A stretch of DNA of 64,000 nt from Streptomyces hygroscopicus (lineage in GTDB: Bacteria > Actinomycetota > Actinomycetes > Streptomycetales > Streptomycetaceae), in assembly GCA_002021875.1 (NCBI GenBank), contig CP018627.1, positions 2,418,001-2,482,000 on the forward strand, given 5' to 3'. The translations under genes were made by a program, and so were the position numbers. The notes below the pieces were generated by a model. It saw nothing but the letters and a program-made list of their open reading frames with translations. It was not told the DNA's origin and ran no database searches. Below, one piece after another: positions 46,746-64,000 of this stretch; the first letter of the stretch is position 1; each line of letters begins with the position of its first letter.

Positions 46746-47165
46746 TCACCATGGACACCAGTTGTCCGACTCCTTCAGAGAGCCGGGGTCAAGGGTGGCG
46801 AGATACGCGGTGAGTAAATCCTTGTAATCGGCTTGCTGACTGTCGTCCGCTGCCTCGCTGAAGGCCTTGTACCTCCCGATGCGATACAGGAATTCGATAA
46901 AGTTTCCGAGCGACTCGTTGACGATCTCTATCTCGATGTTCTCAGCAACCAGGCATGCGAGCAGGATCTGCCCGTCCAACGGGTTGAGGTAGTAACGGAA
47001 ATCGGAATCGCTGTGCGGTGCCCCCAGCGTCACAAACGTTTCCGGAGTGACAGGGACGGCCGCGCCGGAGTACTCACCGGTACGCTGTGCATTTCCGAAT
47101 GGCGTGATCATGCCGCAGAATCTACACGCCGCGCAAGAGAACCACAGCGGCGGATCAAAGCTCAT
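46746..47165 (-). CDS. SUKH-4-like putative immunity protein
   Basis: A 139-residue protein from ATG 47165. The order is a glycine-rich opening, VPVTPETFVTLGAPHSDSDF, YYLNPLDGQILLACLVAENI and VNESLGNFIEFLYRIGRY. The NxSLxxFxxFL element after two strands is the mark of the SUKH-4 immunity family. It ends KESDNWCPW. No toxin lies next to it. The gene is complete but isolated between IS remnants. Confidence 0.65.
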   Translation of the reverse strand: MSFDPPLWFSCAACRFCGMITPFGNAQRTGEYSGAAVPVTPETFVTLGAPHSDSDFRYYLNPLDGQILLACLVAENIEIEIVNESLGNFIEFLYRIGRYKAFSEAADDSQQADYKDLLTAYLATLDPGSLKESDNWCPW

Positions 47166-47263
47166 TGACGGAAAACTCCCTCGTCTTCGCGCGGGCTCAA
47201 AGAACGCAGCGTCCCGTGCCGGAGCTCGCGCGTCTCGTCCACGGTCCTTAGCTTGTTCTTTAT

Positions 47264-47647
47264 CTACCAGGATCTTCCGGGCTTGCCGATGGCCTTGAGG
47301 GTCTCGGGGCGTTTGACGGTCTTGCCGACGTCGTAACGGGGTGCCCGGTGTTTGTTCTTGGCGCCGGGTGGCCGTCCGGGGCCTGCACCTCGGGGTTTGG
47401 GAACACGGGTCGGGCAGGCGAGGTAAGCGCGGATGTTCCTGAACCCTCGGCGGACCCGGGCCGGGGTGAGCCGGTCGGAGGCGGTGGGTTTCTCCCACGG
47501 CCGGCGGAGGTCCGCGGCGAGCGGCCGGGCGAGGCGGAGCTGGGTGTGGGCGACGATCAGGACCCAGGTCCAGCGGTCCGCGGCCTCGGGAGTACGGAGT
47601 TTCGGTGCGGTCCAGCCGAGAGTCTGCTTCGCGAAACGGAAGGTGTG
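47264..47647 (-). pseudogene. NF041680-type transposase, C-terminal fragment
   Basis: Starting with HTFRFAKQTLGWTAPKLRTP, it continues EAADRWTWVLIVAHTQLRLA, ARVRRGFRNIRAYLACPTRV and YDVGKTVKRPETLKAIGKPG, the C-terminal block of the NF041680 transposase group common in Streptomyces. It is cut at about 47648, exactly where the coupling-ATPase sequence begins on the other strand. Confidence 0.75.
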
Positions 47648-49524: not shown

Positions 49525-50538
49525 ATGCCCGCTCTGCCCCGCCCCGCCTCCGGACCCGGCTCGCGTTACACCGCGCGCGCCGCACTCACCCGGCCCCGGC
49601 CCACACCCCCACGGCACCGCGCAGACCCTGCTGCCCTCACCCGCAGCCTCACCGCACGCGACCTGTGGATCACCGCCATGGTTCACGAACACCGCGTCCT
49701 GACCACCACGCAGATCGCCCGCATCGCCTTCACCAGCCAACGCTCCGCCCAGCGCCGCCTGCGCGTCCTCCACCACCACGCCGTCCTGGACTCCTTCCGC
49801 CCCCTGACCCAGCACGGCTCCGCACCCGAGCACTACACCCTCGGCCCCACCGGCGTCAGCCTCATCGCCGCCCACGCCGGATGCGAACCCGCCACCCTCG
49901 GCTGGCGCCCCACCACCACCGGCCGCATCGCCTACTCCCCATCCCTCGGCCACGACATCGGCGTCAACGAACTCCTCACCCACCTCGCCGCCCCCACCCA
50001 AAACGCCACCCACGGCCACCTGACGCTGTGGCTGTCCGAACGCTCCTGCGCCAGACGCTGGGACGACATGATCCGCCCCGACGCCTACGCCCACTGGCAC
50101 CACCCCACCACAACCGACGCGAATAACCCGGTCCTGCTGCCGTTCTTCCTCGAATACGACACCGGCTCCCAGACCCTGCCCCGCGTCGAAACCAAACTCG
50201 CCGGCTACGCCGCCTTCATCACCTCCACCAACACCCGCCCCGCCCTCCTCATCCACACCCGCACCGCCTCCCGCGACCGCGCCCTCCGCCACCGCCTCAC
50301 CCAACCCGCCCGCGACCTCGGCCTGTACGTCGCGACCTCCTCCGCGGACTTCACCACCCACACCCCCTGGGGCCCCTGGTGGACACCCCTCCACCCCGCA
50401 GCCCGCCGCACCACCCTCACCGGCCTCACCACCCACTGGCCCCACCTCACCCCGGCCAGCATCGACCCCACCGACGCCGACACCACCCTCACCCTCCCCA
50501 TCCCACCCCGGCCACCCACGACGCCAAACGGCCGATGA
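49525..50538 (+). CDS. Replic_Relax-family protein (plasmid relaxation/replication)
   Basis: A 337-residue protein of the actinobacterial replication-relaxation family, thought to act on plasmid DNA during replication or transfer. A winged helix lies at residues about 50-100 (HEHRVLTTTQIARIAFTSQR, then SAQRRLRVLHHHAVLD). The later alpha-beta domain has LGHDIGVNELLTHLAA, PDAYAHWHH and LPFFLEYDTGSQTLPRVETK, the acidic EYDTG and E-x-K set that suggests a nuclease-like centre. The N-terminal 45 residues are a basic, proline-rich tail. It lies 74 bp after the ATPase and overlaps the next gene by ATGA. Confidence 0.88.
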   Translation: MPALPRPASGPGSRYTARAALTRPRPTPPRHRADPAALTRSLTARDLWITAMVHEHRVLTTTQIARIAFTSQRSAQRRLRVLHHHAVLDSFRPLTQHGSAPEHYTLGPTGVSLIAAHAGCEPATLGWRPTTTGRIAYSPSLGHDIGVNELLTHLAAPTQNATHGHLTLWLSERSCARRWDDMIRPDAYAHWHHPTTTDANNPVLLPFFLEYDTGSQTLPRVETKLAGYAAFITSTNTRPALLIHTRTASRDRALRHRLTQPARDLGLYVATSSADFTTHTPWGPWWTPLHPAARRTTLTGLTTHWPHLTPASIDPTDADTTLTLPIPPRPPTTPNGR

Positions 50539-51467
50539 GCCTGCTCGCCAAGACCACCACCGGGATCGGCTGCGCGCTCATCGCCCTTCCCCTGCTCGCC
50601 GCCCTCGCTATCGCCGCACTCCTCAGCTCCCTCATCCCCGGCTCCAGCGGCACCACCACCGCCCCCGGCAGGAACGCGCTGCAGGACATCCCTCCGAGCA
50701 TGCTGGCGCTGTATCAGCGGGCCGCCCCCGAGTGCCCGGGCCTGCCCTGGACAATCCTCGCCGCCATCGGCAAGGCCGAGACCGACCACGGACGCCACCC
50801 CACCATGCGATCCTCCGCAGGAGCCGTGGGCCCCATGCAATTCCTGCCGTCCACCTTCAAGCTCTACGCACACCCGGTACCGGCAGGTGGACGCAGACCC
50901 CCGACGCCGTGGGACCCGGTGGACGCGGTGTTCGCGGCAGCCCGCCTGCTGTGCACACACGGTGCCCGACACAACAAGAACATCGAGCGGGCGATCTACG
51001 CCTACAACCCCTCCCACACCTACGTCGCAAACGTTCTACGCATCGCACGCCGCTACGCCGCCACCCTCCCCACAACCTCCGCTGCCGGCCGGGAGGTGGT
51101 GGCCTTCGCCCGCCGCCAGCTCGGCACCCCCTACGTCTGGGGCGGCGACGGCCCCGCCGAAGGCGGCTTCGACTGCTCCGGCCTCGCCAAAGCCGCCTAC
51201 GCCACCATCCACATCAGCCTCCCCCGCGTGGCACAGGCCCAGTACAACACCGGCCCCCGCCTCCCCGCCGGAACACCCCTCCTCCCAGGCGACCTGCTGT
51301 TCTTCGGCACCAGTCCGCGGGCTGTCACGCACGTCGGCATCTACAGCGGCCACCACCACATGATCGACGCACCCCACCCCGGCGCCGTGGTCAGAGAAAC
51401 CCGCATCCAGCTGACCGGCCCCACCTACCAGGGAGCAACCCGCCCGAGCCCGCGCGGTACACGATGA
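50535..51467 (+). CDS. transglycosylase-NlpC/P60 cell-wall hydrolase
   Basis: A 310-residue protein. One N-terminal helix (residues 11-33) anchors or exports it. Residues about 55-165 form an SLT-type lytic transglycosylase fold with Glu82 in IGKAETDHGR and AGAVGPMQFLPSTFKLYA. Residues about 185-300 form an NlpC/P60 peptidase with Cys214 in GGFDCSGLAKAAYA and His266 in AVTHVGIYSG. Two-domain hydrolases of this type open peptidoglycan for DNA-transfer channels in Gram-positive conjugation. Start overlaps the Replic_Relax stop (ATGA), and its own stop overlaps the next start likewise. Confidence 0.9.
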   Translation: MSLLAKTTTGIGCALIALPLLAALAIAALLSSLIPGSSGTTTAPGRNALQDIPPSMLALYQRAAPECPGLPWTILAAIGKAETDHGRHPTMRSSAGAVGPMQFLPSTFKLYAHPVPAGGRRPPTPWDPVDAVFAAARLLCTHGARHNKNIERAIYAYNPSHTYVANVLRIARRYAATLPTTSAAGREVVAFARRQLGTPYVWGGDGPAEGGFDCSGLAKAAYATIHISLPRVAQAQYNTGPRLPAGTPLLPGDLLFFGTSPRAVTHVGIYSGHHHMIDAPHPGAVVRETRIQLTGPTYQGATRPSPRGTR

Positions 51468-52351
51468 GCACGCACCCCACCCCGGCCGAGATCGACACCT
51501 TGATGCGCACGCTCGTCCGCATCCTGGCCGGCGTCGCCGCCCTCGCCCTCATCTTCACCGCCGTCAACGTCACCCTCTTCGCGGTCGATCACCACATCCC
51601 CTGGCCGATCGCCGTCCTCCTCGACCCGATGGTCGCCCTCACCCTCACCACCGTCCTCTACGCCGACGCACGACTCGCCGCCTGGAACATCCCCCCACCA
51701 CGCTGGTCCACCACCCTGCGCTGGTCCACCGGCCTGGCCGCCACCGTGATGAACACCTGGACCTCCCTCTGGCCCGATGACCACATCGGCTGGCCCCGTC
51801 ATGCCGACCCCGCCGGAGTGCTCCTCCACGCAGTACCACCCCTGCTCCTCATCGGCCTGACCGAAACCGTCGCCGCCTACCGCCGCTGCACCTCCCAGAC
51901 ACACCCGCACCCCACCACCGCACCCCACGACAACCACCATGAGGAGCACCCCAGGAACACGCCGGGAGCACCCACACCCCCCGCTCCACCACCGTCCGAG
52001 CGCACCGATGAGGAAGACGGGGACCCGACAGCGGCCACCACACACCACGACAGCCACGAACCCACCCCCGATGGGCCCGTGGACCAGCCCGATGGACACA
52101 GCCGCGCAGACGCCGATATGTACGCGCGGGCTCTCGCACTGGATCTCGCGGCCCGCCAGCACACCGGTCAGCCGGTCAGCATCCGCCAGCTCCGCCGCCA
52201 CTTGCACCTGGGCCAACACCGCGCCCGAGAGCTCCGCTCCCGGCTCGACACCGAGCGCACCCCGGGAGCACCCGCACCTCACCCCGCACCCCAAACCGCA
52301 CCCGACCAACCACGCCAAGAAGCACCCGCCCGGGGGACGGGAGCGGCTTGA
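51464..52351 (+). CDS. DUF2637-type membrane protein
   Basis: A 295-residue protein. Four hydrophobic segments lie between residues about 17 and 135 (ILAGVAALALIFTAVNVTLF, WPIAVLLDPMVALTLTTVLY, WSTGLAATVMNTWTSLWPDD, LLHAVPPLLLIGLTETVAAY), the DUF2637 pattern of Streptomyces plasmid spread or transfer proteins. A long acidic, His/Pro-rich linker leads to a C-terminal helix-turn-helix-like segment (PVSIRQLRRHLHLGQHRARE). It is translationally coupled to the wall hydrolase by ATGA. A role in intramycelial plasmid spread is plausible. Confidence 0.82.
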   Translation: MSTHPTPAEIDTLMRTLVRILAGVAALALIFTAVNVTLFAVDHHIPWPIAVLLDPMVALTLTTVLYADARLAAWNIPPPRWSTTLRWSTGLAATVMNTWTSLWPDDHIGWPRHADPAGVLLHAVPPLLLIGLTETVAAYRRCTSQTHPHPTTAPHDNHHEEHPRNTPGAPTPPAPPPSERTDEEDGDPTAATTHHDSHEPTPDGPVDQPDGHSRADADMYARALALDLAARQHTGQPVSIRQLRRHLHLGQHRARELRSRLDTERTPGAPAPHPAPQTAPDQPRQEAPARGTGAA

Positions 52352-52471
52352 CTAGTCGGCCGCCACAGAGCGTTCATAGTCGTCGCCGCGGACCACCGCG
52401 TAGGCCACGCGCCGCGAGCACCCCGGCCGGGGCTCTCTCCACAACCACCACCCCACGCGGGAGACCCCACC

Positions 52472-53296
52472 ATGCCAACCACCACCAAAACCGACAACAC
52501 CACACCCACCCCCCACCAACCCGACCTCGCTCAGCTATCCGGCGCCACCGCCGCCGTATGGGCCGCACTGCACAACCAGCCCGGCACCACCAGCACCACC
52601 CTCGCCCAAGCCGCCGGTACCGGCCAGTCCACCACGACCAAAGCCCTCCGCCACCTCGAACAGACCGGCCTCGCCCACCGAGAGAGCGCCGCCCCCGACG
52701 GCAGCGGCCGCCCCGCCAACTACTGGTACCCCACACCCACACCCACACCCGACCCTGACACCAGCACCTCACCGGACACGACGGACGAGCCGCCGACCGC
52801 TGACAACGACAGCCACGAGCAACCCACCGAGCACCACGACCACCCCGCGCCCACTGCAGAGTCCCCCGCATCCGAGGACGACGCATCAGAACACGGTGAC
52901 GCTGATGAAGACGGGGAGCGGGGTTCTGCGAGCGAACCCTCGCAGGGAGTAGAAAACGACGATGCGCCGGCGCCGACGCCCGCGTCCGAGCCTCCGACAA
53001 GCGAGGCGACCCCCGAGGACGCAAAAACGGAGGAGACCCAGCCAACCGTCAACCAGAGCGGCTACCGGACCCGCCTCGCCCCTGGTGCCCTGCGCCAGAT
53101 GGTCATCGGCCACCTCACCGCTCACCCCGACGAAGCGTTCACGGCCACACGCATCAGCCGGATCATTGAGAAAAGTTCCGGCGCCATCGCCAACGCCCTG
53201 GTCACCCTGACCAAGCAGGGCATCGCCGAACAGGTCACCGAACGCCCACGCACCTACCGCATCACCGCCGCAGCAACCAGGAACGGCGAGGCGTAG
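52472..53296 (+). CDS. protein with two winged helices and acidic linker
   Basis: A 274-residue protein with GGGAGAC before ATG 52472. Residues about 18-75 form a MarR/GntR-like winged helix (TTSTTLAQAAGTGQSTTTKA, LRHLEQTGLAHRESAAPDGS). Residues 85-195 are a low-complexity acidic Asp/Glu/Pro linker. Residues about 200-268 form a second winged helix: LAPGALRQMVIGHLTAHPDE, TRISRIIEKSSGAIANALVT and ERPRTYRITA. The second domain is matched by the N-terminus of the AAA+ protein at 62463-63671. Probably a DNA-binding regulator or a partition or transfer factor. Confidence 0.75.
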   Translation: MPTTTKTDNTTPTPHQPDLAQLSGATAAVWAALHNQPGTTSTTLAQAAGTGQSTTTKALRHLEQTGLAHRESAAPDGSGRPANYWYPTPTPTPDPDTSTSPDTTDEPPTADNDSHEQPTEHHDHPAPTAESPASEDDASEHGDADEDGERGSASEPSQGVENDDAPAPTPASEPPTSEATPEDAKTEETQPTVNQSGYRTRLAPGALRQMVIGHLTAHPDEAFTATRISRIIEKSSGAIANALVTLTKQGIAEQVTERPRTYRITAAATRNGEA

Positions 53297-53429
53297 ACCG
53301 GCACGAACGGACCAGCGGCCGGGTACCGCCATTCAGTTGGGGGTACCCGGCACCTACCGTCCATCCGTGTCGTGTCCGATGGTTCGCTGGTGGCTTTGAG
53401 GTGATGGTGCGTTCAGCTTGGAGTTCATC

Positions 53430-53587
53430 ATGAGCCAGCTCGGCACGCGTCGCGATAAACCCGGCGACGTCGACGGTCATCCCGGGATACTGGCCACCGT
53501 GGATGAGGTCAAGGTCGTCGTCTCCCATTCCGAGCGCGCGACCCTGCGCGTCGGCGAGGTGTTCTTGAAGGTGGACGCCGCCCCCGG
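53430..53587 (+). pseudogene. APH-family phosphotransferase, 5' fragment
   Basis: From ATG 53430: DVDGHPGILATVDEVKVVVS and HSERATLRVGEVFLKVDA. It is the opening and first kinase strand (Lys of the nucleotide pocket in FLKVD) of an aminoglycoside-phosphotransferase-fold protein. The next codons are replaced by unrelated DNA. The remaining part appears at 55047-55679 in the same orientation. Confidence 0.75.
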
Positions 53588-54216
53588 CCTCCTTCTGGCA
53601 GGCCGCACACGACCGCCTCACCAACCCCGACAGCCTCGCCAAACTCGCCGAGGCCGCCGCCAACCGCCGCCGCGACCGCTGGGCTTACCACCTCTGACAG
53701 AAGGCCGCAGATGCCGGCAGCACCAGTGCCCTGATCAGTCTCGCCCTGGTACGGGAGAAGGCTGGGGACCGGGACGGGGCCGAACAGCTCGTCCGACAAG
53801 CCGCCGACGCCGGCGACGCCTCGGCCCCGAACTCTCTCGCCCGCTGGCGACAGTTAGTCGAGGACCAAGACAGGCTCGAACAGTTCGTCCGGCGACAGGA
53901 CGAGGTCGAACAGCTTGCCCGGCAAGCCGCCGACACCGACGCCCCGAACGTTCTCGCCGACTACGCCGACGCCCTGAACGATCTCGCCATCTACATCGAC
54001 GCCCAGAACCTTCTCGACCTGATACGGGAGGAGACCAGGGCCTGGCCCGAGACCGAGCAGTTCGCCCGGCGAAACGCCGACGCCGGCTACGCCGCCTCCA
54101 TGATCGATCTCGACGCGAGGCGGGAGAACGGAGACCTGTGGCCGTACGGACTGGACCCCGATGGCACGCCATCCGCGCCCTGGGACCTCTTCACACAGCC
54201 ACCTGCGGATATGTAG
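53588..54216 (+). pseudogene. Sel1/TPR-like repeat protein, C-terminal fragment
   Basis: ASFWQAAHDRLTNPDSLAKL and AEAAANRRRDRWAYHL end at a TGA. The same frame resumes QKAADAGSTSALISLALVRE, KAGDRDGAEQLVRQAADAGD and further repeats, to a stop at 54216. The GD-D-GAEQLVRQAADAG units are Sel1-like/TPR repeats. The N-terminus is missing. This fragment forms the left part of the DNA that splits the phosphotransferase gene. Confidence 0.7.
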
Positions 54217-54422
54217 CAGCGGGTCACGGCAAATATCACCAACAGGCTGTGAGCGAATCTTTCCCTTGCCGAGCTCGACGCGCTCAGCTGCTCAATGTTC
54301 AGTGAGAACGCTCAACTTTGAGTGCGACAGAACAATCGACGTCGAGGGGCCAACCGACGAAATTAGCTGACCTGGAGCTTCGCCGACAGTCGGGTGTGCG
54401 GATCCCATGCTTACCCAGCCCC

Positions 54423-54902
54423 TCACCTGCCAGAAATAGCTCGCCGCCCGCGGTAGCCACGAAAGCCGCGGCGCAGCGCAAGGGCGCACCATATGAACGC
54501 TGCCGTCAGTGCGGCTGCGGCCGAGGCACCAAGCACCGGTGGCTCCGGCCGAAAGCCCAGTGAGAGCCGGGTGCCCATGAACGTGGGTATGACTGCGAGC
54601 ACATCCGGGCCGTGGAGCGGAACCCTGGCGGCGACAGCCCGCAGCGCGGCTGCCGCCGTCAGACCGGTCGCGGTCCAGGCCACCAGGTACGGCCGCACCT
54701 GCCCCGGAGCGGCGAGCGGCATCCCGTACTCATCGGAGCCGAGACGGAACGACGCGTCGGCCCAGCCCAGGCCGACCCCGAGGATGGTGACGCCCGCCGC
54801 CCACAAGGCATGGCGCCATAGTGGACCAGGCCGCAGGGACTCTTCGTCGCTGTCAGAGCTCGCGCAGTTGTCAGGGCTGGAGAGGCCGGGCGATTCGGTC
54901 AC
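54423..54902 (-). CDS. hypothetical membrane protein, possibly truncated
   Basis: A 159-residue frame from GTG 54902. Three or four helices: HALWAAGVTILGVGLGWADA, LVAWTATGLTAAAALRAVAA, a short one near AVIPTFMGTRLSL, and GASAAAALTAAFIWCALALR. The frame is open further upstream (DETSDGLNTESSALLLGRRE) up to the phosphotransferase junction at 55047, so the real start may be lost. It lies inside the insert that splits that gene. Confidence 0.45.
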   Translation of the reverse strand: MTESPGLSSPDNCASSDSDEESLRPGPLWRHALWAAGVTILGVGLGWADASFRLGSDEYGMPLAAPGQVRPYLVAWTATGLTAAAALRAVAARVPLHGPDVLAVIPTFMGTRLSLGFRPEPPVLGASAAAALTAAFIWCALALRRGFRGYRGRRAISGR

Positions 54903-55046
54903 GCCCAGAAAACGCAGCCCGAATGCCGCAGGTTCCCACCCGAATCGCCGACCGATGCTTTCACGTCGGCCGAGAAGCAGCGCCGAGCTCTCGGTGTTGA
55001 GCCCGTCGCTCGTTTCGTCACCCCACCCTCCGCATTTCGTCGGTTC

Positions 55047-55679
55047 CCCTGAGGTCGTGGCGATGGCCCTGGCGCCGGTCCCGACCCCGGAGGTCATGTG
55101 GCGCAAGCCGCCCGTGCTCGCGATCGCCGCGGTCCCGGGGACGGCGCTCGGCCGCCTCGGCAAGCCGTCGACCGCGTCGCCGGCGGCGTGGGCCACGGCA
55201 GGTGCCGCCATCCGGAAGTTGCACGACGCGCCGTTGCCACCGTGGCCCGGCCGGAGCCTTGACGAGTTGGCGGCGGATCTCGAGGGCGAGTGCGAGTGGC
55301 TCGTGACGAACGGTGTCCTGCCTGCCGACCTGGTCACTCGCAACCGGCCAGGTCGCCGAGGCCGCGCTCCGGCCGTGGACTCCGGCGTCCACGCACGGCG
55401 ACCTGAAGATCACTCACGTGTTCATCGACGGGGACGAGATCACTGGCATCATCGACTGGTCCGAGAGGGGCCGGGGTGATGCTCTGTTCGACCTCGCCAC
55501 CTTGACGCTCGGGAGACCTCGGCGACGTCGTCGCCGGCTATGGCACCGACGTCGACCTCGACGTGACCCGCGCGTGGTGGTCGTTGCGAAGCCTGCTGGC
55601 GGTGCGCTGGCTGGTCGAGCACACGGCTTCGACCCGTCCGCGCCGGGCTGCTGTCGACGTGTTGAGCTCCCGGCTGTGA
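55047..55679 (+). pseudogene. APH-family phosphotransferase, 3' part
   Basis: Reads ALAPVPTPEVMWRKPPVLAI, SPAAWATAGAAIRKLHDAPL, LVTNGVLPADLVTRNR, then after a small indel AEAALRPWTPASTHGDLKIT (catalytic HGDL) and IDGDEITGIIDWSERGRGDA (metal-binding IIDW). Beyond LATLTLGR several further shifts occur, to GYGTDVDLDVTRAWWSLRSL, WLVEH and a stop at 55679. Kinase motifs remain, but the gene is split and frameshifted. Confidence 0.8.
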
Positions 55680-55857
55680 GGCTGCGCGGGCCCGACTGCT
55701 ACGAGTCCGTTCTGACGCATCGAGCAGGCCATCTCCTGGGGCGCATCGCCTGCCCTTACTCACTCTGCTGCGCATGTCGCTGGGGTGTGCGGGGTGACCG
55801 TGTCGGGGGCCGGCAGTTGCGAGGTGACGTTGGGGTGTCAGGTCTCCCGGTGCCCGC

Positions 55858-57201
55858 TCAGAACAGTGCCAGGCCCTCGCCGCTGGTGTCCGCGATGACT
55901 GGTCGGAACTGGGCGGGGAGTCCGTCCAGGCGGTCAGGACCGGCCGCGGCGGCCACGGCAGGGGCCGTCTCGGCCAACCAGAGACGAAACCGCTCGGCGG
56001 CTTCGCGGTAGGGGACTTGCGCCAGGACACGGTGCTCGCCGGAGGGGCAGAAATCGACGGCGACAGTGAGCATGCACGAACGGGGCGCGTTCTGACTGCC
56101 AGTCCAGGACACGCGCAGGACACCGCAGGGCTCGCGTCCGCGGGGGGCGCGGTGGGTCGGGCGCAGCGATCGGCAGGCTATGTGGGCGGTCCATGCGGCG
56201 AGGTGCGGCAGGGGCAGGGTGGTGCGTGCGCGGCAGCCGGGGCAGCGGTGCCAGTGGCGAAGCCAGTCATCGGCGTCGGTGTGGAAGAGGCGCGTGTAGC
56301 GGTTCGCCACGCGGATGTCGTTGCTGTACAGGTAGTCGGGGCGTTCCTGTGTATTGCAGGACTGGCAGACAGGGGCGCGGACGTAGCCGTGTTCGTGACA
56401 GTGATCGAGCACGGTGGCGGGCGCGGTGCGGCAGACGGCGCACACCCACCCGGCCACCCTGCGGGAGGTACCGGGCTTCCTGCTGAGCACTGAGTACAGC
56501 TGGCCATCCAGCTCTCCGTCGTACGAGCGTGGTGAGGCAGTGGGGCCCTCGGAGCTCGTCGCCTGCCGACCGCCAAAGTCTCGGGCATGCCGGGGATGGG
56601 AGGGCGGCTCGGTGACGGCCGCGCTTGCCATGCGGGTCCGCGCCGCGTGCGCCCACTGTGTTTCGGTGTGCTCGGCCGCGTCGAGCAGCCTGACCACAGC
56701 GCGCGGCAGCCACCACGTCCGCTGCGTCCCGTCGCGGGTCCGCTCCACGAGTATCTGTCGCCAGTCGATCCCCGCCAGATGGGACGGCCGGCCGACTTCA
56801 CCTCGTGCTGCCCGCTCGGGGGCGCCCAGCTCCTGCAGTTCCCCCGTGATGCGCTGGCGCCAACGGAGCGGCGTTTCCTCGTCGCACTCCTGCCTCGGCG
56901 CCCCACGAAACGGACCGATGCGGACCAGGTCCTGCCGATCCATCCCCACCGCGCTCAGTTCCGCGGCCGCCCGGCGCACCTCAACCTCCGGAACATTCCA
57001 CTGACCGCCGCTCGCCCTCACCGTCGCCACCACATGGCCGCCGAGCAGGACGTACCCCACCCGGGCATGGGCAGGACAGCAGGTGAATGCCCCAGAAGCC
57101 GTCGGCACAGCACTGTCAGCCGTCAAATCGACCCACAGAGCGTCCGCGGCACCCAAGGTGATCAGGCCGTCCGTGTGACCGGGCATGACACGCTCTGACA
57201 T
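55858..57201 (-). CDS. endonuclease VII-like HNH protein
   Basis: A 447-residue protein from ATG 57201. The middle holds a zinc-bound HNH module: Cys254-Cys257 in GWVCAVC, the LDHCHEHGYVRAPVCQSCN block at residues 265-283 with catalytic Asp266/His267, and Cys279/Cys282. This is the hallmark of T4 recombination endonuclease VII proteins, which resolve branched DNA. The N-terminal 200 residues and the C-terminal region, with a second CPGC pair, are plasmid-type sequence without known domain. It ends the leftward operon; a role in processing transfer or replication intermediates is plausible. Confidence 0.85.
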   Translation of the reverse strand: MSERVMPGHTDGLITLGAADALWVDLTADSAVPTASGAFTCCPAHARVGYVLLGGHVVATVRASGGQWNVPEVEVRRAAAELSAVGMDRQDLVRIGPFRGAPRQECDEETPLRWRQRITGELQELGAPERAARGEVGRPSHLAGIDWRQILVERTRDGTQRTWWLPRAVVRLLDAAEHTETQWAHAARTRMASAAVTEPPSHPRHARDFGGRQATSSEGPTASPRSYDGELDGQLYSVLSRKPGTSRRVAGWVCAVCRTAPATVLDHCHEHGYVRAPVCQSCNTQERPDYLYSNDIRVANRYTRLFHTDADDWLRHWHRCPGCRARTTLPLPHLAAWTAHIACRSLRPTHRAPRGREPCGVLRVSWTGSQNAPRSCMLTVAVDFCPSGEHRVLAQVPYREAAERFRLWLAETAPAVAAAAGPDRLDGLPAQFRPVIADTSGEGLALF

Positions 57202-57449
57202 ACCGACAGGCTAACGGCTTGCAACCCGGCAACGGGTTCCAAACGCCTCGGTCAGCCGGGCCGCCGCCCACGCCGCATCTGCCGTGGAAGACCCCGAGAC
57301 CGCTGGACGCGCCGCAGAAATCCTGGAACAGCTCGTCGAGATCATCCACGGCAAGACCAGACCCGTTGACTCTCCCAATGGCATGCATGGAAAAGGCCCT
57401 GTCAGCGGCCGTCGTGCAAGCCGCTGACAGAGCTCCTCGAGTGATCGCG

Positions 57450-57944
57450 TTACCGGCCACCGCATCCTGCGTGTCCGCAGCCGCCGCAGGAGCCGCCGCT
57501 GTTGCACGCGCACGGGCAGGGGTTTACCCGTCGGCGGCTTGCCGTGAGGGCGTCGGTGCGCTGCTGGGGCAGGGAGACGGTGGGCGGTGTGGTGGGACGG
57601 TCGGGGTTGGCGCGGTGGGCTGCGGTGTCCAGCAGGCGCAGCCGTGCCGGGTAGGGGCGTTGGTCGAGGCGGGATAGGTAGTGCGGGAGGGTGGGATCGG
57701 TTAGGCCGGTGAGCTGCCATCCGGCGGCGTTGATCAGGTGGCAGGCGGCCTCTGCTTCGAGCCACGCGGCGTGGTGGGGTGAGACGCGGGTGGCGTGCTT
57801 GTTGCAGACGCTTTCGGTCGCGGTGTTCAGCAGGCTCGCGAGCGCGGATCGTGCGCTGACGGCGTCGCGCATGAGGAGGCGTTGACTTTGGGTGAGGATC
57901 TTGTGGACCAGGGCGCGGTGGTGGTGGAGGTCAGGCGTCGTCAT
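57450..57944 (-). CDS. small protein with cysteine-rich C-terminus
   Basis: A 164-residue protein from ATG 57944 (AAAGGAA upstream). The body is helical (LVHKILTQSQRLLMRDAVSA, RSALASLLNTATESVCNKHA, AAWLEAEAACHLINAAGWQL). The last 20 residues are striking: CPCACNSGGSCGGCGHAGCG, with six Cys and one His, a probable metal site. No known family. It lies 249 bp upstream of the endonuclease VII-like gene in the same direction and may be part of that operon. Confidence 0.65.
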   Translation of the reverse strand: MTTPDLHHHRALVHKILTQSQRLLMRDAVSARSALASLLNTATESVCNKHATRVSPHHAAWLEAEAACHLINAAGWQLTGLTDPTLPHYLSRLDQRPYPARLRLLDTAAHRANPDRPTTPPTVSLPQQRTDALTASRRRVNPCPCACNSGGSCGGCGHAGCGGR

Positions 57945-57972
57945 GGGGGCGGTTCCTTTCACCTGCTATCTG

Positions 57973-58002
57973 GTGCTGTCCCGCGCGTGCGCGCGGCAGC
58001 AC
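57973..58002 (-). terminator. intergenic hairpin
   Basis: GTGCTG-tc-CCGCGC and GCGCGGCAGCAC pair with a 2-nt bulge around a short loop. It stands between two leftward genes (58157 and 57944), so it may be an attenuator or partial terminator within the operon. Confidence 0.45.
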
Positions 58003-58156
58003 ATGGGGATGGTGAGGGGATGCGAGCTGCGGATTGCCACTGATGGCCCCGGCAGCCGCGTCGGGGCGCAGGTGCCCGGCGGACTGTTCATAGGCCGTGG
58101 CGGCTCGGGGTACAGCGGTGCCCTGCGGGAGGCGGCGAGTGCCGGGTAGATGCCTG

Positions 58157-58558
58157 CTATGCAGCGAGGAGGGCGAGTTTGTAGGCCTCGATGACCAGGT
58201 TGAGCTGGTTCATCTGTTGTACGTAGCGGGTGGCGTTCACATCGATGGCGCGGCTGGTGTGCTGCAGGGATCCGAGCGGGACGGCCTCGGCCTGGTTCGC
58301 GTGGGCTGGGACGTGGCGTACGTGGTCGCAGGTGTTCCTTGCGTAGTAGCGCAGTTCGGCGTGGAGGCGGTCGGTCTCTTGTGCGGTGGTCCAGAGCAGT
58401 TCGGCCAGGGGCCCCAGCGCGGTGTCGGTGAGGCGGCGGTGGCGGCGTAGCGTTGCGTAGCCGTCGTTGCCCAGGGCGGTGCGCAGGGTGGTTTCGCCGG
58501 GACCGGTGTAGGTGGATGGGCTGGTGTGGGACCGTGGGCTGCTGAGGGGACTGTCCAT
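58157..58558 (-). CDS. hypothetical plasmid protein
   Basis: A 133-residue soluble protein from ATG 58558 (AAAGGGCG upstream). It is mostly helical: TDTALGPLAELLWTTAQETD, RLHAELRYYARNTCDHVRHV, NATRYVQQMNQLNLVIEAYK. No family recognised. It lies 25 bp after the stop of the next gene upstream, so the two are co-transcribed. Confidence 0.65.
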   Translation of the reverse strand: MDSPLSSPRSHTSPSTYTGPGETTLRTALGNDGYATLRRHRRLTDTALGPLAELLWTTAQETDRLHAELRYYARNTCDHVRHVPAHANQAEAVPLGSLQHTSRAIDVNATRYVQQMNQLNLVIEAYKLALLAA

Positions 58559-58583
58559 GGGGGCGCCCTTTCGCTTGGGGGGC

Positions 58584-59054
58584 TTACGCCGCGCCGTAGC
58601 GGCAGGTCGGGGCGTGTCCCTCGTCGGTGTCGAAGGTGTCGGGGTAGGTGGCCGGGGTCGGGCCGTTGCTGAGTGGGGCTGGTCCGGTGGCCAGGTGAGT
58701 GCCGAGGTCGGCGAGGTGGCGGACGGCGGCCAGCGGTACGGGCGCGGCGCACACGGGACAGGGGCCGAGGAGTTCGAAGGCCTCGTCCTCGTAGAGGGGG
58801 TAGCGGGCGAGGAAGGTGTATTGGGTATTGGTGGTCGGGCAGGTGGCGATGGCCAGGAGGGGTTCGCCGGGTGTGGTGCGGCGCTTGCTGTCCGGGGTGA
58901 TGGTGATGTGCTGGAGGCTGAGGCCGAGGGTGCTGGCGAGGCGCACGGCGGTGCGGGCGTGGTCGGCACCGCGGTGGGGTCCGTATTCGCTGGCGGCGGC
59001 GGTCTGCTGGATGAAGGCGGAGGCTGCCTGGGCTTGTTCGGCGATGGAGGTCAT
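58584..59054 (-). CDS. hypothetical plasmid protein with CxxC motif
   Basis: A 156-residue protein with a strong AAGGAG site before ATG 59054. Helical start (AEQAQAASAFIQQTAAASEY), then strands (LSLQHITITPDSKRRTTPGE, YTFLARYPLYEDEAFELLGP) and a zinc-ribbon-like GPCPVCAAPVPLAAVRHLAD. The ending is acidic, with a final Cys. No family known. It lies between the DUF317 gene and the 58157 gene in the leftward operon. Confidence 0.68.
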   Translation of the reverse strand: MTSIAEQAQAASAFIQQTAAASEYGPHRGADHARTAVRLASTLGLSLQHITITPDSKRRTTPGEPLLAIATCPTTNTQYTFLARYPLYEDEAFELLGPCPVCAAPVPLAAVRHLADLGTHLATGPAPLSNGPTPATYPDTFDTDEGHAPTCRYGAA

Positions 59055-59156
59055 GGGCGGTGTTCTCCTTGTGACCCGGTGCTGGCGGTGGCGGCTTGGT
59101 GTGGTGCCGGGAGGTGGCTCGGGTGGGTGGCGGTCAGGTTGGGCGGATGGAGGTGT

Positions 59157-59876
59157 TCAGGGGCACCGGGTGACGGTCAGTGCGCCGACCTCAGGGTCGG
59201 GGAGGGAGTGGCGCGGGACTGGTGTCGGGTCGGTGAGGGCGCGGCATAGGGCGGCCATCAGGTGGGTTGGGGTGGCCGGGGAGGCTACGGCGACCCACAG
59301 CACCATGGCGTCGGCGGCGCGGCGGGCGGCGCACAGCCAGTTCGCTCCGCCCTTCCCGGTGGTGCTGGGGACGGTGGCGGTGATGACAACGGCCTGCTCG
59401 TTGGGGGTGTACCAGGAGTCGTCTTGGCGGCCGATGTCGCGGATCCATCCGGCTGTGGCGAGTGCCTCGGTGGCCTTGTGGGCGGATTGGGACAACAGCA
59501 GGTAGCGCGGACCGTCTTCGGGGGTGGGCCCGGGGGTGTCGTCGGCCACGGCGGCGGCGAATGCGGCGGTGATTTCGGGTGGGGTGTCGTGGGAGAACCA
59601 CGCAGTCCAGGTCACACGTGCGGCGGAGTAGGCACTGGCCGTGAACTCCCAGGCCATCAAAGGCTTCCCGGGGTGCACGGCACGGCTGTGGAGATGGCGC
59701 GCGTGGCGCTGTCCGCTGGGGTCGCGGTAGTCGGTGTGGCACGGCTCGCGGGTGGCCTTCCATCCGGCTGCCAGGAGCACGTCGTCAGCTGTGGTCACAG
59801 CGGCGGGGTCGGGCCCTGCGAGGTAACGGGGCGAGATCAGATAGCGCGGTGCGCTGGGGCGATTCCGGTTCTGCAT
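59157..59876 (-). CDS. DUF317 (SPDY-type) plasmid protein
   Basis: A 239-residue protein from ATG 59876 (GGAG 7 nt upstream). Two related halves: YLISPRYLAGPDPAAVTTAD, LMAWEFTASAYSAARVTWTA and WFSHDTPPEITAAFAAAVAD, then a second weaker unit with LATAGWIRDIGRQDDSWYTP and AMVLWVAVASPATPTHLMAA. This is the DUF317 repeat common on Streptomyces plasmids and integrative elements, function unknown. It follows one of the two shared promoter modules. Confidence 0.85.
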   Translation of the reverse strand: MQNRNRPSAPRYLISPRYLAGPDPAAVTTADDVLLAAGWKATREPCHTDYRDPSGQRHARHLHSRAVHPGKPLMAWEFTASAYSAARVTWTAWFSHDTPPEITAAFAAAVADDTPGPTPEDGPRYLLLSQSAHKATEALATAGWIRDIGRQDDSWYTPNEQAVVITATVPSTTGKGGANWLCAARRAADAMVLWVAVASPATPTHLMAALCRALTDPTPVPRHSLPDPEVGALTVTRCP

Positions 59877-60052
59877 GATGAACTCCTGCCGGGGTATCGG
59901 GTGGGGGATCTGTGCTGTCGGCGTCGTTTCGGGCTGTGAGGTATTCGGGGTCCCGCCGCTCCGGTCACCGGAATGGCACTGTTCTGCGCCGATCGCTGCT
60001 GGCGTCGACTTGGGAATGCGTCGCGGCATGTGGCGTGATGGTGATGTGACAT
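59837..60052 (-). CDS. possible small basic protein
   Basis: A 71-residue frame from ATG 60052 with a strong AAGGAG site 9 nt upstream, starting MSHHHHATCRDAFPSRRQQR. It is rich in Arg, Ser and Pro, and its end overlaps the DUF317 start in another frame. The ribosome site is better than many nearby, but the composition is that of a shadow frame. It could be a leader peptide. Confidence 0.35.
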   Translation of the reverse strand: MSHHHHATCRDAFPSRRQQRSAQNSAIPVTGAAGPRIPHSPKRRRQHRSPTRYPGRSSSCRTGIAPAHRAI

Positions 60053-60325
60053 GAGCTGTCGCTCCTTGTGAATGGAATAGGGAAATCGGGGGCGGCGTGT
60101 TGTCATCCGGTCGTCGGGGCGGACCAGCAGGCCTTCGGCTGGGACCTCTGCCAAGGCTGCTGGGCACGTCAGGTGACACTTAGCTTGCGGCTTCCTTTGA
60201 GACCGCCCCTGAATCCGCATTCGGCCGCACCTCCCACCGCCCAGCCTCATGGGCACATGTCACCCATAGCGGCTTCTTCGCGTTAATTCTCTGCAGATTT
60301 CCGATTCCGGCCATTGCTGGGAATG

Positions 60326-60404
60326 CGACCAATGTAGCTCGATATTGGAAATGGGTCGACATTGATGGCGGCTGCGAATTGCTGGAATTATCGCGAATTC
60401 ACGA
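60326..60404 (-). promoter_or_regulatory. shared promoter/operator module, copy 1
   Basis: CGACCAATGTAGCTCGA at 60326-60342 (on the minus strand it contains a TACATT -10-like box), then 33 nt, then three AATT boxes at 60377, 60386 and 60396 with Gs before them, ending TCACGAC. The same module with identical spacing lies at 63783-63861. It precedes the DUF317 gene set. Confidence 0.7.
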
Positions 60405-60584
60405 CCGTATCCGAGGGGCATTCCACGGCTGGGTGACGCATAGTGTCGTCGGGTGTGCGGCGTCCGGCGGGTGCCAGGTTCGACCGGTCATGCAACGGGC
60501 GCGAGGTTCCGGGTGGGGTCGGCGCCCCGGCCCGGTGGGGCCGGGGGCGTGTGCGGTCCGGTGCGGGTGGTGCGGTGGGGGTGG

Positions 60585-62393
60585 CTATCGGGTGGTGGTG
60601 AGGGCGGTGGTCGCGGCTTTGGCGATCGCGGTGATGGCCTGGGCGGGGTGGGTCAGTTCCAGCGGCGTGGCGCCCGGCAGCGGGCACGGATCGGGGGCGA
60701 AGGCGAGCCATAGCACCGCGCATCCGGCGTCCTTCAGGGTGGTGATGCGTTGGGCGGCGCGGGCGGCTTCGTCGGGGTGGTAGTAGCCGTCGGAGGCGAT
60801 GACCAGCAGGCGGCCCGTTCCGGGCTGGGTGAGGGCGAGCCCGGCACAGAGGGCGTCGATAGCCTCGGCGAGGCTGTGTCCCAGCCCCCTGGCCTCGAAG
60901 CGGGTGACCCTGGTGGGGGCGCGGCCGGGGGCGGTGATGGCGGTCAGGGCCCGGTCGTAAGCCACGGTGGCGGTGCGTGAGTCGGGGTCGGTCAGTGCGG
61001 TGGCTTTGGCCAGGATCCAGGCGGCCGAGGCGATCGGGTCTGCTGCGGCGTTCATGGATCCGGACACGTCGACCGCGATCCCCACGCGCAGTGGCGGTGT
61101 GGGATTGGGGCGGCGCAGGGTCCGGGTCCAGGGTGTGGCCGTGGGGGTGGCTCCGGCCGCCTTCTGGGCCTCCCGGGCGAGAGCCTGGCGCATGTTGAGG
61201 CGACCGGGCGGGGCGGCCGAGGCGGTGTGGGTGGTGGTGCGTTCGCGGTAGGCGGCGGCCCGCAGAGCCTTGGCGAGCTGTCCGGCGGCGGCCTTCTCAC
61301 TTGCGGTCGGCAGCCGGGTGCCGGTCACCGGGGATGGGGTGTTGCCCTTACGGGGTTTGCCGGGTGTGAACGGTCGCGCTCCGGGCGAGAAGACCCGTTC
61401 CGCCGTTTTGGCCGCTTGCCGTTCGTGGGTGGCCTGGGCGGCTTTCGCCTCGGCCCGGGCGGTTCGGGCGGCGGCGACCCGTGCCTGCGCGGCGGCCTGC
61501 GTGGCCTCGTTCGCCTGCACCCGTACCGTCACTTTCCCGATGGCCTCGGCGAGTTCACCCCGTGGGCCGCCGCCGGTGGGTTCGGGTGCGGTGGCTGGCG
61601 TGCCCAGTGCTTGGCACCAGGCATGCGCGTGATCCAGCATGCCGGGCGCGTCGTCGTCGGCGGTGGCGTGGGCCGCCGTCCAGATCTGGGTGAGGGTGTC
61701 CAGCAGGTCGGGACCGAGGATGCTGGTGACGGCCTGTTCGAGGGGTTCGGTTTCGTCCGGGTCGAGGATTCCGGCATCCCTGCGGGCGAGGATCAGACCG
61801 GCGGCCCGGGCGGCCTGCCAGCGGTTGCTAGGGGTCTGGGCGGTGATGTCGGCGAGGATGAGGGTGTGGGCGGCCGATCGCAGGAACGGGCGGTCGGCGG
61901 GGCGGCGGGTGAGATGAGCGCGTTCGGCGCGGGACTCCTCCAACAGCTGTGCCGCCCTGTCCAGCGCGGTCCCGCGCAGGTTGGGCGGGGTGGTCCAGAT
62001 ACTGTGCGCGGCATGCGCGGCCTCGTGGACCAGGACTCCCCAGGCGGCCGGGTAGCGTTCCTCATCACCGCGTCGTTCGGGGTTGATGGTGGCCGGTGGC
62101 AGCGGGGCGAAGAGGGCGGCATCGATCTCCAGCTCGGCCGTGGTGGGGTAGAAGGCCCCCGGGGCGCCGGAGCGGGTGCCGTGCTGGCAAGTGACGATCA
62201 CGTCCTTCCGGTCCGCGAGTTCGGGGAGCCGTCCGGTCAGGGCTGCGGCGATCCGGATCCATTGCCCGGCCTGCGCGGCCGGACCGGGTTCGAACGGCGG
62301 GCCGCCATCGTCCTCCCACCTCGCCTGGGCCCATTCGGCCTCGGACAGTGCGGGCGGCTGGTGCTGTACGTGGGCTGTGGTCTGCGCGGGCAT
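60585..62393 (-). CDS. VWA-domain protein with HExxH metallopeptidase-like N-terminus
   Basis: A 602-residue soluble protein from ATG 62393. Near residue 120 is VLVHEAAHAAHSIW (HEAAH at 123-127), with a later LLEESRAERAH glutamate as likely third zinc ligand, so the N-terminal part resembles a zinc metallopeptidase. A central Ala/Arg-rich coiled coil (residues 290-340) follows. Residues about 436-595 form a von Willebrand A domain with the MIDAS motif DVSGSMN at 442-448 and IASDGYYHPDE. It lies 70 bp after the AAA+ gene on the same strand. MoxR/CobS ATPases typically act with such VWA partners to remodel a target. Confidence 0.85.
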   Translation of the reverse strand: MPAQTTAHVQHQPPALSEAEWAQARWEDDGGPPFEPGPAAQAGQWIRIAAALTGRLPELADRKDVIVTCQHGTRSGAPGAFYPTTAELEIDAALFAPLPPATINPERRGDEERYPAAWGVLVHEAAHAAHSIWTTPPNLRGTALDRAAQLLEESRAERAHLTRRPADRPFLRSAAHTLILADITAQTPSNRWQAARAAGLILARRDAGILDPDETEPLEQAVTSILGPDLLDTLTQIWTAAHATADDDAPGMLDHAHAWCQALGTPATAPEPTGGGPRGELAEAIGKVTVRVQANEATQAAAQARVAAARTARAEAKAAQATHERQAAKTAERVFSPGARPFTPGKPRKGNTPSPVTGTRLPTASEKAAAGQLAKALRAAAYRERTTTHTASAAPPGRLNMRQALAREAQKAAGATPTATPWTRTLRRPNPTPPLRVGIAVDVSGSMNAAADPIASAAWILAKATALTDPDSRTATVAYDRALTAITAPGRAPTRVTRFEARGLGHSLAEAIDALCAGLALTQPGTGRLLVIASDGYYHPDEAARAAQRITTLKDAGCAVLWLAFAPDPCPLPGATPLELTHPAQAITAIAKAATTALTTTR

Positions 62394-62462
62394 GGCGGAT
62401 CGGTCCCTTTCCGTAGGCGTCGGGGGTGCGTGGGGTGGTGGCCGATGGGCCGCAGGTGCGGG

Positions 62463-63671
62463 TCAGAGTTGGCGGCCCAGGGACAGGGCGGTCACCGGCT
62501 TGCCCAGGGCTTTGGTGACGATTTCGGCGACGGTGTCGCGGTCTTCGAGCGGGGCGATGCCGACCAGATTGGCGAAGGCCGCCTCGGCGCCCAGGACATC
62601 GGCGATCTTCTGAAACGAAATCAACTCGCGTAGTTGCGGCGCCCAGCCGACCTCCCCGGCCTGCTGACAGGTGGCCAGGTTCCTCGCGATCCGTACCGCT
62701 GTCCTGTTGATCTTCAAGGCGGTCGCCAGGTCGTAGTCCGACCCCACCTGGATCTGTACCGAGAACCGGCTGGCGAGGGCCTCGGTCAGCACCGCTCCGT
62801 GGACCCCGGGGTTGTGGCCCGCGATGACGTAGAAGCCCTCGGCGGCGGTGATCGTCTCGCCCTTGTGCGCCTTGACCTGGATCTGGCGCCGCCCGTCCAT
62901 CGCCGGATACAGCGCTGCCAGCACCTTCGGGGAGATCAGGGTCGCATCGTCCAGTAGCAGGGCCCGCCCCTCCTGCATGGCCGTCACCAACGGCCCGTAG
63001 ATGAACTCATAACCACCGTGCTGATCCTGGGTGTATTCCCCGATCAGGTCACCGACTGTTGTGTCACCGTCCCCGGCAACCGTGATCAGGTCCGGAAAGG
63101 CGGCCTCGATCAGCGAGGTCTTGCCCGTCCCCGGCGGACCGTAGAGCAACACCGGCACACCTGCCTCGCGCAGCCGCCGCAGCGCCTCGACATCGGGAAG
63201 GTTGGCCAGCGCCCGGGGGTGATACTGCTGCCCGTTCGGGCGGGTCACCGGCCCGGGCCGCCCACCCGGCGGACCAACGGCAGGCGTCGGCCGAGTGGTA
63301 GATGGCGGGGCCGGGGGCGTATGGGCCGGGTCGGGCGGCCTGGGTACTGTGGCCTGTGCGGCGGCTGCGGCAGTGGTCGCTGTTGCCCGGTACATACGGG
63401 GGTTGAAGCCGACTCGTACCGCTTCTCCTCGGCGCACGAGGGTTTCACACGCGTTACCGATCGCACCGCCGGAATGCCCCAGCATGTTGACCAGCTCCGT
63501 GACACTGAATTGCGCCCCCGGCGGGCCTCCGGCCAGGGCCTTCGCGATACGGGCCCGCAACTCGCCCGGGCGGGCCTTCCCGTTCACGGAGGCTGTGGAG
63601 GCCGACGGGCCTGCCGGAGGGTTCGGTGTGGCCGAGTTGGACGTCGGAGACAACTGAGCAGCACTGGTCAT
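62463..63671 (-). CDS. MoxR/CobS-like AAA+ ATPase with N-terminal winged helix
   Basis: A 402-residue protein from ATG 63671, chosen because AAAAGGA stands 9 nt upstream. Residues about 35-97 form a winged helix (ARPGELRARIAKALAGGPPG, HSGGAIGNACETLVRRGEAV) matching the C-terminal domain of the 52472 protein. Residues about 165-330 are the AAA+ module: Walker A LLYGPPGTGKTSL near 178, Walker B as ALLLDDAT with Asp in place of the usual Glu, VIAGHNPGVHGAVLTEALAS and SRF arginine finger. The C-terminal part is CobS/MoxR-like. It is followed by the VWA gene, its likely partner. Other roles for the fold exist. Confidence 0.9.
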   Translation of the reverse strand: MTSAAQLSPTSNSATPNPPAGPSASTASVNGKARPGELRARIAKALAGGPPGAQFSVTELVNMLGHSGGAIGNACETLVRRGEAVRVGFNPRMYRATATTAAAAAQATVPRPPDPAHTPPAPPSTTRPTPAVGPPGGRPGPVTRPNGQQYHPRALANLPDVEALRRLREAGVPVLLYGPPGTGKTSLIEAAFPDLITVAGDGDTTVGDLIGEYTQDQHGGYEFIYGPLVTAMQEGRALLLDDATLISPKVLAALYPAMDGRRQIQVKAHKGETITAAEGFYVIAGHNPGVHGAVLTEALASRFSVQIQVGSDYDLATALKINRTAVRIARNLATCQQAGEVGWAPQLRELISFQKIADVLGAEAAFANLVGIAPLEDRDTVAEIVTKALGKPVTALSLGRQL

Positions 63672-63782
63672 CGCGGTCATTCCTTTTCGCAGTTCCCGAG
63701 CCTTTTGGGCATACTCCACCTGTAATCCGTATTCAGGCGGACCCTGTTGGCCTGGATTTCTTTCCCGGAATTCCCGGGAACA

Positions 63783-63880
63783 CGACCAATATAGCTCGAC
63801 GCGCGGCCCTCTTCGATATCAATCCGGGCTGGGAATTGCTGGAATTCTCGCGAATTCACGACGGGAATTCATGGCAATTC
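63783..63880 (-). promoter_or_regulatory. shared promoter/operator module, copy 2
   Basis: CGACCAATATAGCTCGA at 63783-63799 (minus strand: TATATT -10-like box), then 33 nt, then AATT boxes at 63834, 63843 and 63853 exactly as in copy 1. Two further boxes follow at 63866 and 63876. Most boxes are GAATTC. It precedes the AAA+ gene by 112 bp. Confidence 0.72.
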
Positions 63881-63884
63881 GCGG

Positions 63885-63909
63885 GTGCACGATGCTTTGC
63901 GTCGTGCAC
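63885..63909. other. hairpin beside tandem repeats
   Basis: GTGCACGATGC and GCGTCGTGCAC pair over 11 bp (one G-T) around a TTT loop. It lies between the promoter module and the 13-bp repeats and may end a transcript entering from the right or belong to an origin-like region. Confidence 0.5.
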
Positions 63910-63935
63910 GGCGGAATGGACGACGCTTCCCCAGG

Positions 63936-64000
63936 CCACCCGGCGCGGCCACCCGGCGCGGCCACCCGGCGCGGCCACCCGGCGCGGCCACCCGGCGCGG
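63936..64000. repeat. five exact 13-bp tandem repeats
   Basis: CCACCCGGCGCGG occurs five times without gap or mismatch up to the last base of the window, so the array continues beyond it. It is non-coding. Iteron, partition or telomere-proxim al repeat are possibilities; an assembly edge is another. Confidence 0.85.

Follow-up and report, generated by a model that had tools for sequence, protein, structure and literature searches.

Why are two neighbouring gene sets of Streptomyces hygroscopicus preceded by the same arrangement of short DNA motifs, repeated down to the spacing between them? The sets lie in a stretch of 64,000 nucleotides (assembly GCA_002021875.1, contig CP018627.1, positions 2,418,001 to 2,482,000), referred to below as the window. 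One comprises an AAA+ gene and its VWA partner, and the other a DUF317 gene. A preliminary description of the window, made from the sequence alone, had recorded a module of a core motif and an AATT array upstream of each set, and had attributed the control of both to one regulator. The analysis presented here indicates that the two places are probably paralogous copies of one regulated promoter with a multi-site operator, which would coordinate both gene sets.

Two copies of the module in the window and the genome

The 17-mer CGACCAATRTAGCTCGA was found without a mismatch at 60326-60342 (copy 1) and 63783-63799 (copy 2). With up to three mismatches, the window contained it only at the same two places (shuffle mean 0.19; two matches were also reached by 2 of 100 shuffles). 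Seven places were found at three mismatches in the genome of 12,012,215 bp, and only the two window copies were exact. AATT boxes start at 60377, 60386 and 60396 in copy 1 and at 63834, 63843 and 63853 in copy 2, with spacings of 9 and 10 nt in each, and the gap from the 17-mer to the base preceding the first AATT is 33 nt in both. Two extra boxes of copy 2 start at 63866 and 63876. The two copies, their spacing and the additional boxes are thus as they had been described.

The 26-nt array block, with up to three mismatches, occurs at only two places genome-wide, and an exact triple array (AATT-N4-6-AATT-N4-6-AATT) only at the two module copies. At least one triple AATT array, mostly of different sequence, is present somewhere in 41 of 121 genomes of the genus, and the array type alone is therefore not specific. 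Both modules are on the minus strand and point to the genes at 59157-60179 (copy 1) and 62463-63719 (copy 2). They are direct copies, 3.46 kb apart, and part of the spacer falls within a repeat of 84% identity. The 33-nt spacers, described earlier as unrelated, are so only beside the core, where their identity is 10%; it reaches 60% beside the array and 57% in the -35 region.

Distribution and conservation among relatives

The motif pair was searched for at its fixed spacing. With up to three mismatches it was found at 11 places in 9 of 392 genomes of the genus (all genome counts include the window's own genome), and a reversed control pattern gave no match in the 392 genomes. A sequence-only profile, R1, covering -75 to +40 and built from 14 modules, matched 19 places in 14 of the 392 genomes. 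Of these, 18 places in 13 genomes were considered credible; G357 was dropped as a partial, weak match (8.9e-4). R1 also matched 23 of 297 genomes of the family, in 8 of 17 genera. A plasmid collection yielded one match, in a 2.8-Mb linear record of Streptomyces sp. BHT-5-2, and a phage collection none. The core and a start-region inverted repeat are retained in Nocardia thailandica (L030), with a weak R1 match (17.4 bits, E 0.0005); this module was left out of the conservation counts and included in the gene-partner counts, and L152b was left out of the 27-, 38- and 39-module counts given below. Among the matches listed, relatives of the AAA+ gene occupy at least 12 loci, five of which entered the analysis; L030 bears a module and L031 is free of one. 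R1 scans of three AAA+ relative loci from the matches listed (L034, L036 and L041) gave no match.

The 18 modules for which conservation was calculated came from 13 genomes of the genus (17 modules) and from a named record (one module). Mean pairwise identity was 0.84 in the array block, 0.89 over the core and -10 hexamer and 0.90 over six bases from the predicted start; it was 0.37 in the inner spacer, 0.37-0.55 over the spacers as a whole and 0.32-0.35 in the far flanks. (The palindrome identity of 0.06 between win1 and win2 is an artefact of a 1-nt difference in register.) In each of the 18, CAGCA (or its counterpart) is separated from TCGAGC by 41-43 nt. It is apparent that array, core and spacing have been kept in relatives while the spacer drifted, and functional selection on a promoter-like module, as first proposed, is well supported by these comparisons.

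Anatomy of the probable operator

The AATT array had been interpreted as an operator on one face of the helix. This interpretation is only partly supported: the boxes at -57 and -47 (positions are counted from the core) are present in 20 and 22 of 27 non-redundant modules, but the third box, at -38, is present in only 7. Boxes at -80 and -70 occur in 13 and 4 modules.

GTCG boxes, which the preliminary description had not recorded, form a more regular element, and the module is larger than first described. They lie within 1 bp of -125, -94 and -63 in 24, 24 and 26 of the 27 modules, and all three are at an exact spacing of 31 bp in 21, as compared with 210 of 9838 background places (2.1% per place). 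The palindrome ACGAC-N7-GTCGT accompanies this grid, with CGAC at -105 in 25 of 27. The right half of the copy 2 palindrome contains the -94 grid box, which reads ATCG here and GTCG in 24 modules. In an earlier set, a chain of three GTCG at a lag of 31 (1 bp of slack) was found in 8 of 11 modules, and none of 300 shuffled sets exceeded one over all lags. The -125, -105 and -94 boxes are outside the R1 profile; their conservation, therefore, was not selected by the search. Two further grid steps on, GTCG occurs at -1, in the TCGAGC core, in 14 of 27 modules, and none occurs at -32. TCGAGC is exact at the core place in 28 of 39 modules, and in 6 of the 39 a further TCGAGC is found at -93/-94. 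The distance of the latter from the core amounts to three steps of the grid, which suggests that the core and the grid boxes are related sites.

Scans of 82 kb placed the motifs as follows. The three highest scores of the palindrome matrix were those of copy 2 on both strands (24.9 and 21.8) and of copy 1 (21.4), the next being 12.5; the array block gave two high places (52.5 and 49.8), followed by 3.5; and for the core the best other place scored 14.0, against a training minimum of 14.5. Unrelated to the module, a palindrome of the type AATTGCRAAATTTYGCAATT recurs in various Streptomyces genomes.

We regard the 31-bp GTCG grid with its palindrome, which is more regular than the AATT array, as the likely main operator. 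This arrangement predicts one regulator, which could be retrieved with a single DNA fragment.

Predicted promoter core, start region and leader

The conserved pattern consists of a weak -35 region and a -10 hexamer, TATATT or TACATT, fused to TCGAGC. The start point is predicted at a purine, 63781, in copy 2 and at 60324 in copy 1. Of 19 modules, counting that of Nocardia, 14 have an inverted repeat whose left arm starts 6-8 nt past the -10 hexamer and whose stem runs for 5-8 pairs without interruption; the other five are L025 and the four DUF317-side copies. The stem score of copy 2 was reached by 7 of 1000 shuffles and at 3 of 573 flanking positions. When ten leaders were folded, eight formed a 5'-terminal hairpin, and those of copy 1 and L025 did not.

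The arms found in other genera are TGCCCGG/CCGGGCG, with both sides of pair 2 changed; among 27 modules this pair is T-A in 11 cases and G-C in 5. Pairing at fixed span gave 101 Watson-Crick pairs of 162 in the 27 modules, with a shuffle mean of 97.1. Since 188 of 2000 shuffles did at least as well, covariation does not go beyond shuffles, and the element is termed an inverted repeat. It is probably a 5' hairpin but may instead be a DNA palindrome. RNAalifold, applied to a MAFFT alignment of the leaders, predicted no pairs, and no Rfam match at the gathering threshold was obtained for 50000-64000. The leader contains a conserved stretch, GGATTACAGGTGGAGTATGCCC (GGATGACGGGTGGAGTGYGCCC in several relatives), e.g. 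at 63707-63728, which lies downstream of the start site and ahead of the AAA+ gene; the probable start of this gene is the ATG at 63671 (alignment of nine sequences).

Gene context

For 38 modules, 3.5 kb or more of downstream sequence was available (Nocardia included; four two-module loci count twice). AAA+/VWA or DUF317 genes follow 35 of them, the AAA+/VWA pair in 26 cases and DUF317 in 23. A second module copy stands before DUF317 in L022, L023 and G055 (L027), as it does in the window, and in L140, L147, L149, L151 and L153 the module precedes DUF317, with no full AAA+ gene in the fetched flank. Across genera, then, the module faces the AAA+/VWA set, the DUF317 set or each of them in turn. 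This exchange of partners is the best support for the shared control that had been proposed.

A BTAD gene of the Tad operon is located upstream of 21 of 34 modules with at least 2.5 kb of upstream sequence. Among the 13 modules that lack it there, win1, L022b, L023b, L027b and L148 come after an AAA+ gene; the others are L020, L021, L026, L138, L139, L146, L150 and L152a. The Tad-pilus operon upstream of copy 2 lies beyond a 13-bp tandem repeat and ends in a BTAD/LysM gene; directly upstream of the module, at L008:2723-11773, the operon comprises BTAD/LysM, Tad, two TadE, T2SSF, T2SSE and SAF genes. The plus strand of the locus carries genes for a TraG/TrwB-like coupling protein, a Replic_Relax protein and, at 52472, a winged-helix protein. 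For a Tad-pilus/conjugation-like locus that is poorly described and was found here in eight genera of the family, the module provides a conserved regulatory entry point that can be tested; it also suggests that the AAA+/VWA and DUF317 genes are coupled. No literature combining Streptomyces, DUF317, von Willebrand and AAA was found.

Several other features of the locus were recorded. The tandem repeat, GGCCACCCGGCGC, occupies the interval between the BTAD gene and the module from 63935 to 64000 of the window and on to about L008:2375; GC-rich repetitive runs are also found upstream of the module in some relatives (L141, L143 and L145). An open reading frame with a SUKH-4 immunity-like domain (46746-47681) overlaps the start of the coupling-protein reading frame on the opposite strand. 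A protein with a Recombination endonuclease VII domain is encoded at 55858-57201 on the minus strand, and its relative in L023 is 91% identical and in opposite orientation relative to the AAA+ gene.

Table 1. Coordinates in the window of the elements of both module copies and of the genes they face
Feature	Position	Strand	Evidence or remark
Copy 2 outermost GTCG box (-125)	63921-63924	-	GTCG at most 1 bp away in 24/27 non-redundant modules
Copy 2 palindrome ACGACGC-N3-GCATCGT (-106 to -90)	63889-63905	-	Position-matrix scan; CGAC at -105 in 25/27
Copy 2 extra AATT boxes, -70 (63866) and -80 (63876)	63866-63879	-	-80 in 13/27 and -70 in 4/27 modules
Copy 2 array block CGTCGTGAATTCGCGAGAATTCCAGCAA	63836-63863	-	Contains -63 GTCG box and -57/-47 AATT boxes; third box from 63834
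Copy 2 core TCGAGC and -10 hexamer TATATT	63788-63799	-	Core identity 0.89 over 18 modules
Copy 2 inverted repeat TTCCCGG-GAATT-CCGGGAA	63762-63780	-	Predicted hairpin at transcript 5' end
AAA+ (AAA_5, MoxR-like) gene with N-terminal winged-helix stretch	62463-63719	-	Pfam AAA_5, 3.5e-18
VWA (CoxE-like) partner gene	60585-62393	-	Pfam VWA_CoxE, 5.5e-9
Copy 1 degenerate palindrome ACGACACTATGCGTCAC	60433-60449	-	Position-matrix scan
Copy 1 array block GGTCGTGAATTCGCGATAATTCCAGCAA	60379-60406	-	Third AATT from 60377
Copy 1 core TCGAGC and -10 hexamer TACATT	60331-60342	-	Exact 17-mer match
Copy 1 imperfect inverted repeat ATTCC...GGAAT	60304-60324	-	No uninterrupted stem of 4 or more (loop up to 9)
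DUF317 (SPDY) gene downstream of copy 1	59157-60179	-	Pfam SPDY, 1.2e-13

A model for the module and its alternatives

The weak -35 region, the -10 hexamer fused to TCGAGC and a start 6 nt further on would together constitute a housekeeping-type sigma promoter in need of help. GTCGT boxes every 31 bp, i.e. every three helical turns, with ACGAC-N7-GTCGT, would serve as the operator for a probably dimeric regulator, and the adjoining block GTGAATTC-GAATTCCAGCA, from -63 to -37, would be a second protein site, at which an upstream activator would contact RNA polymerase. The copies, their spacing, their conservation and the gene context are established by the sequence comparisons; promoter activity, the start points, activation rather than repression and a single regulator are inferred. 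Such a regulator, acting through the module, would switch the AAA+/VWA and DUF317 sets of the Tad-pilus/conjugation-like locus together.

Three observations weigh against this model. Copy 1 is without the outer GTCG boxes and retains only the -63 box, plus a degenerate palindrome; regulation may therefore differ between the copies. A sigma-70 consensus scan of 60100-64000 found no promoter, the -10 alone being near consensus; this result is expected because the -35 is weak, but it is not supportive. Lastly, neither gene set was found downstream, in the fetched flank, of 3 of the 38 modules (L146, L148 and L150).

The identity of the regulator admits more than one proposal. It may be a winged-helix protein of the locus: one of the 52472 type, or the AAA+ protein itself, whose N-terminal winged helix would then mediate autoregulation. 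Residues 204-263 of 52472, its C-terminal winged helix, are related to the AAA+ N-terminus (51-111; 39% over 61 aa, E 2e-8), and 12 of the 13 module genomes, the window's own included, have a match to 52472, some of them partial and off-locus (e.g. G069). None of seven distant AAA+ loci whose match lacks the N-terminus (L031 and L121-L126) has an R1 module, and core and inverted repeat are present at the Nocardia locus, where the match starts at residue 47. The seven module-free loci are, however, also more distant, so that possession of the winged helix cannot be separated from relatedness; moreover, G055 has both modules and no 52472 homologue at E<=1e-10 (150 of 173 candidates scored), and a full AAA+ gene is missing from the fetched flank downstream of L140, L147, L149, L151 and L153. 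A winged-helix regulator from the locus is, on balance, a possible but doubtful choice. That the MoxR-like AAA+ ATPase, with its winged helix related to that of 52472, binds its own promoter on the 31-bp grid is a narrower and quite improbable proposal; if it were true, the machine would control its own supply together with the DUF317 genes. Another candidate is BldC, a small MerR-like developmental regulator; its head-to-tail polymerization along the AATT repeats, 9-10 bp apart, would place the locus under developmental control and leave the GTCG boxes to another factor. The BldC repeat is given, in two papers (PMC5859096, PMC6428758), as AATT(N3-4)(C/G) in 9-bp units of variable number, bound head to tail. 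The three direct repeats in each copy, 9-10 bp apart, fit it, and a conserved G at -50, -40 and -30 follows the AT boxes in phase. The genome encodes BldC at 7.003 Mb (NF033787, 107.5 bits; cut-off 77), and K26, R30, K36, H46, R47 and R48 are present in its frame, as read and numbered by eye in the DNA sequence. On the other hand, the third AATT box is present in just 7 of 27 modules, the base-specific conservation (GTCG, CCAGCA) exceeds the needs of a shape reader, the GTCG grid is unexplained by BldC, and computer prediction of BldC sites is impossible according to the 2019 paper (PMC6428758). We consider BldC an unlikely occupant of the array.

Two further explanations dispense with a promoter or with function altogether. 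The repeated boxes and the palindrome, lying in a locus that has both coupling-protein-like and Replic_Relax genes, could mark a DNA-handling site, such as a transfer origin or a partition or replication site. In 35 of 38 cases, however, the same gene sets lie ahead of the module; it also has a -10-like hexamer at a fixed distance, and in four loci a second copy stands before another gene set. Such a site is very improbable. The conserved spacing might, finally, be a functionless relic of recent duplication, given two direct copies 3.46 kb apart. That explanation, already disfavoured, is hardly credible when 18 modules keep the spacing to within 1 bp although identity in their flanks has fallen to 0.32-0.35.

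Comparison with known systems

The module would fall within a known kind of element, the operator-controlled promoter. Promoters of SARP activators have heptamer direct repeats related to TCGAGC, 11 or 22 bp apart, upstream of the -10. The module resembles them in having TCGAGC beside the -10 and, in 6 of 39 cases, a second TCGAGC at -93/-94. It differs in that TCGAGC directly adjoins the -10 and the boxes recur every 31 bp, not about every 11 bp. A SARP site was rejected because there is no heptamer ladder near the -10: no second TCGAGC was found within -40 to -6 (0 of 39), degenerate heptamers not having been scanned for. TCGAGC itself did not occur in the literature text-searched for it.

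The BldC operators of Streptomyces (whiI, smeA-sffA) share with the module AATT-type repeats 9-10 bp apart, in variable number, with C/G 4-5 nt downstream (PMC5859096, PMC6428758). The module, known here from its sequence, differs from them in its strongly conserved flanking bases, GTCG grid and palindrome. As for the genes, the MoxR-vWA systems (eLife 2020, PMC7159879), whose described third components are VMAP, iSTAND and others, likewise have an AAA+ MoxR-like gene followed by a vWA gene; the pair in the window differs from the systems described there in its Tad-pilus setting.

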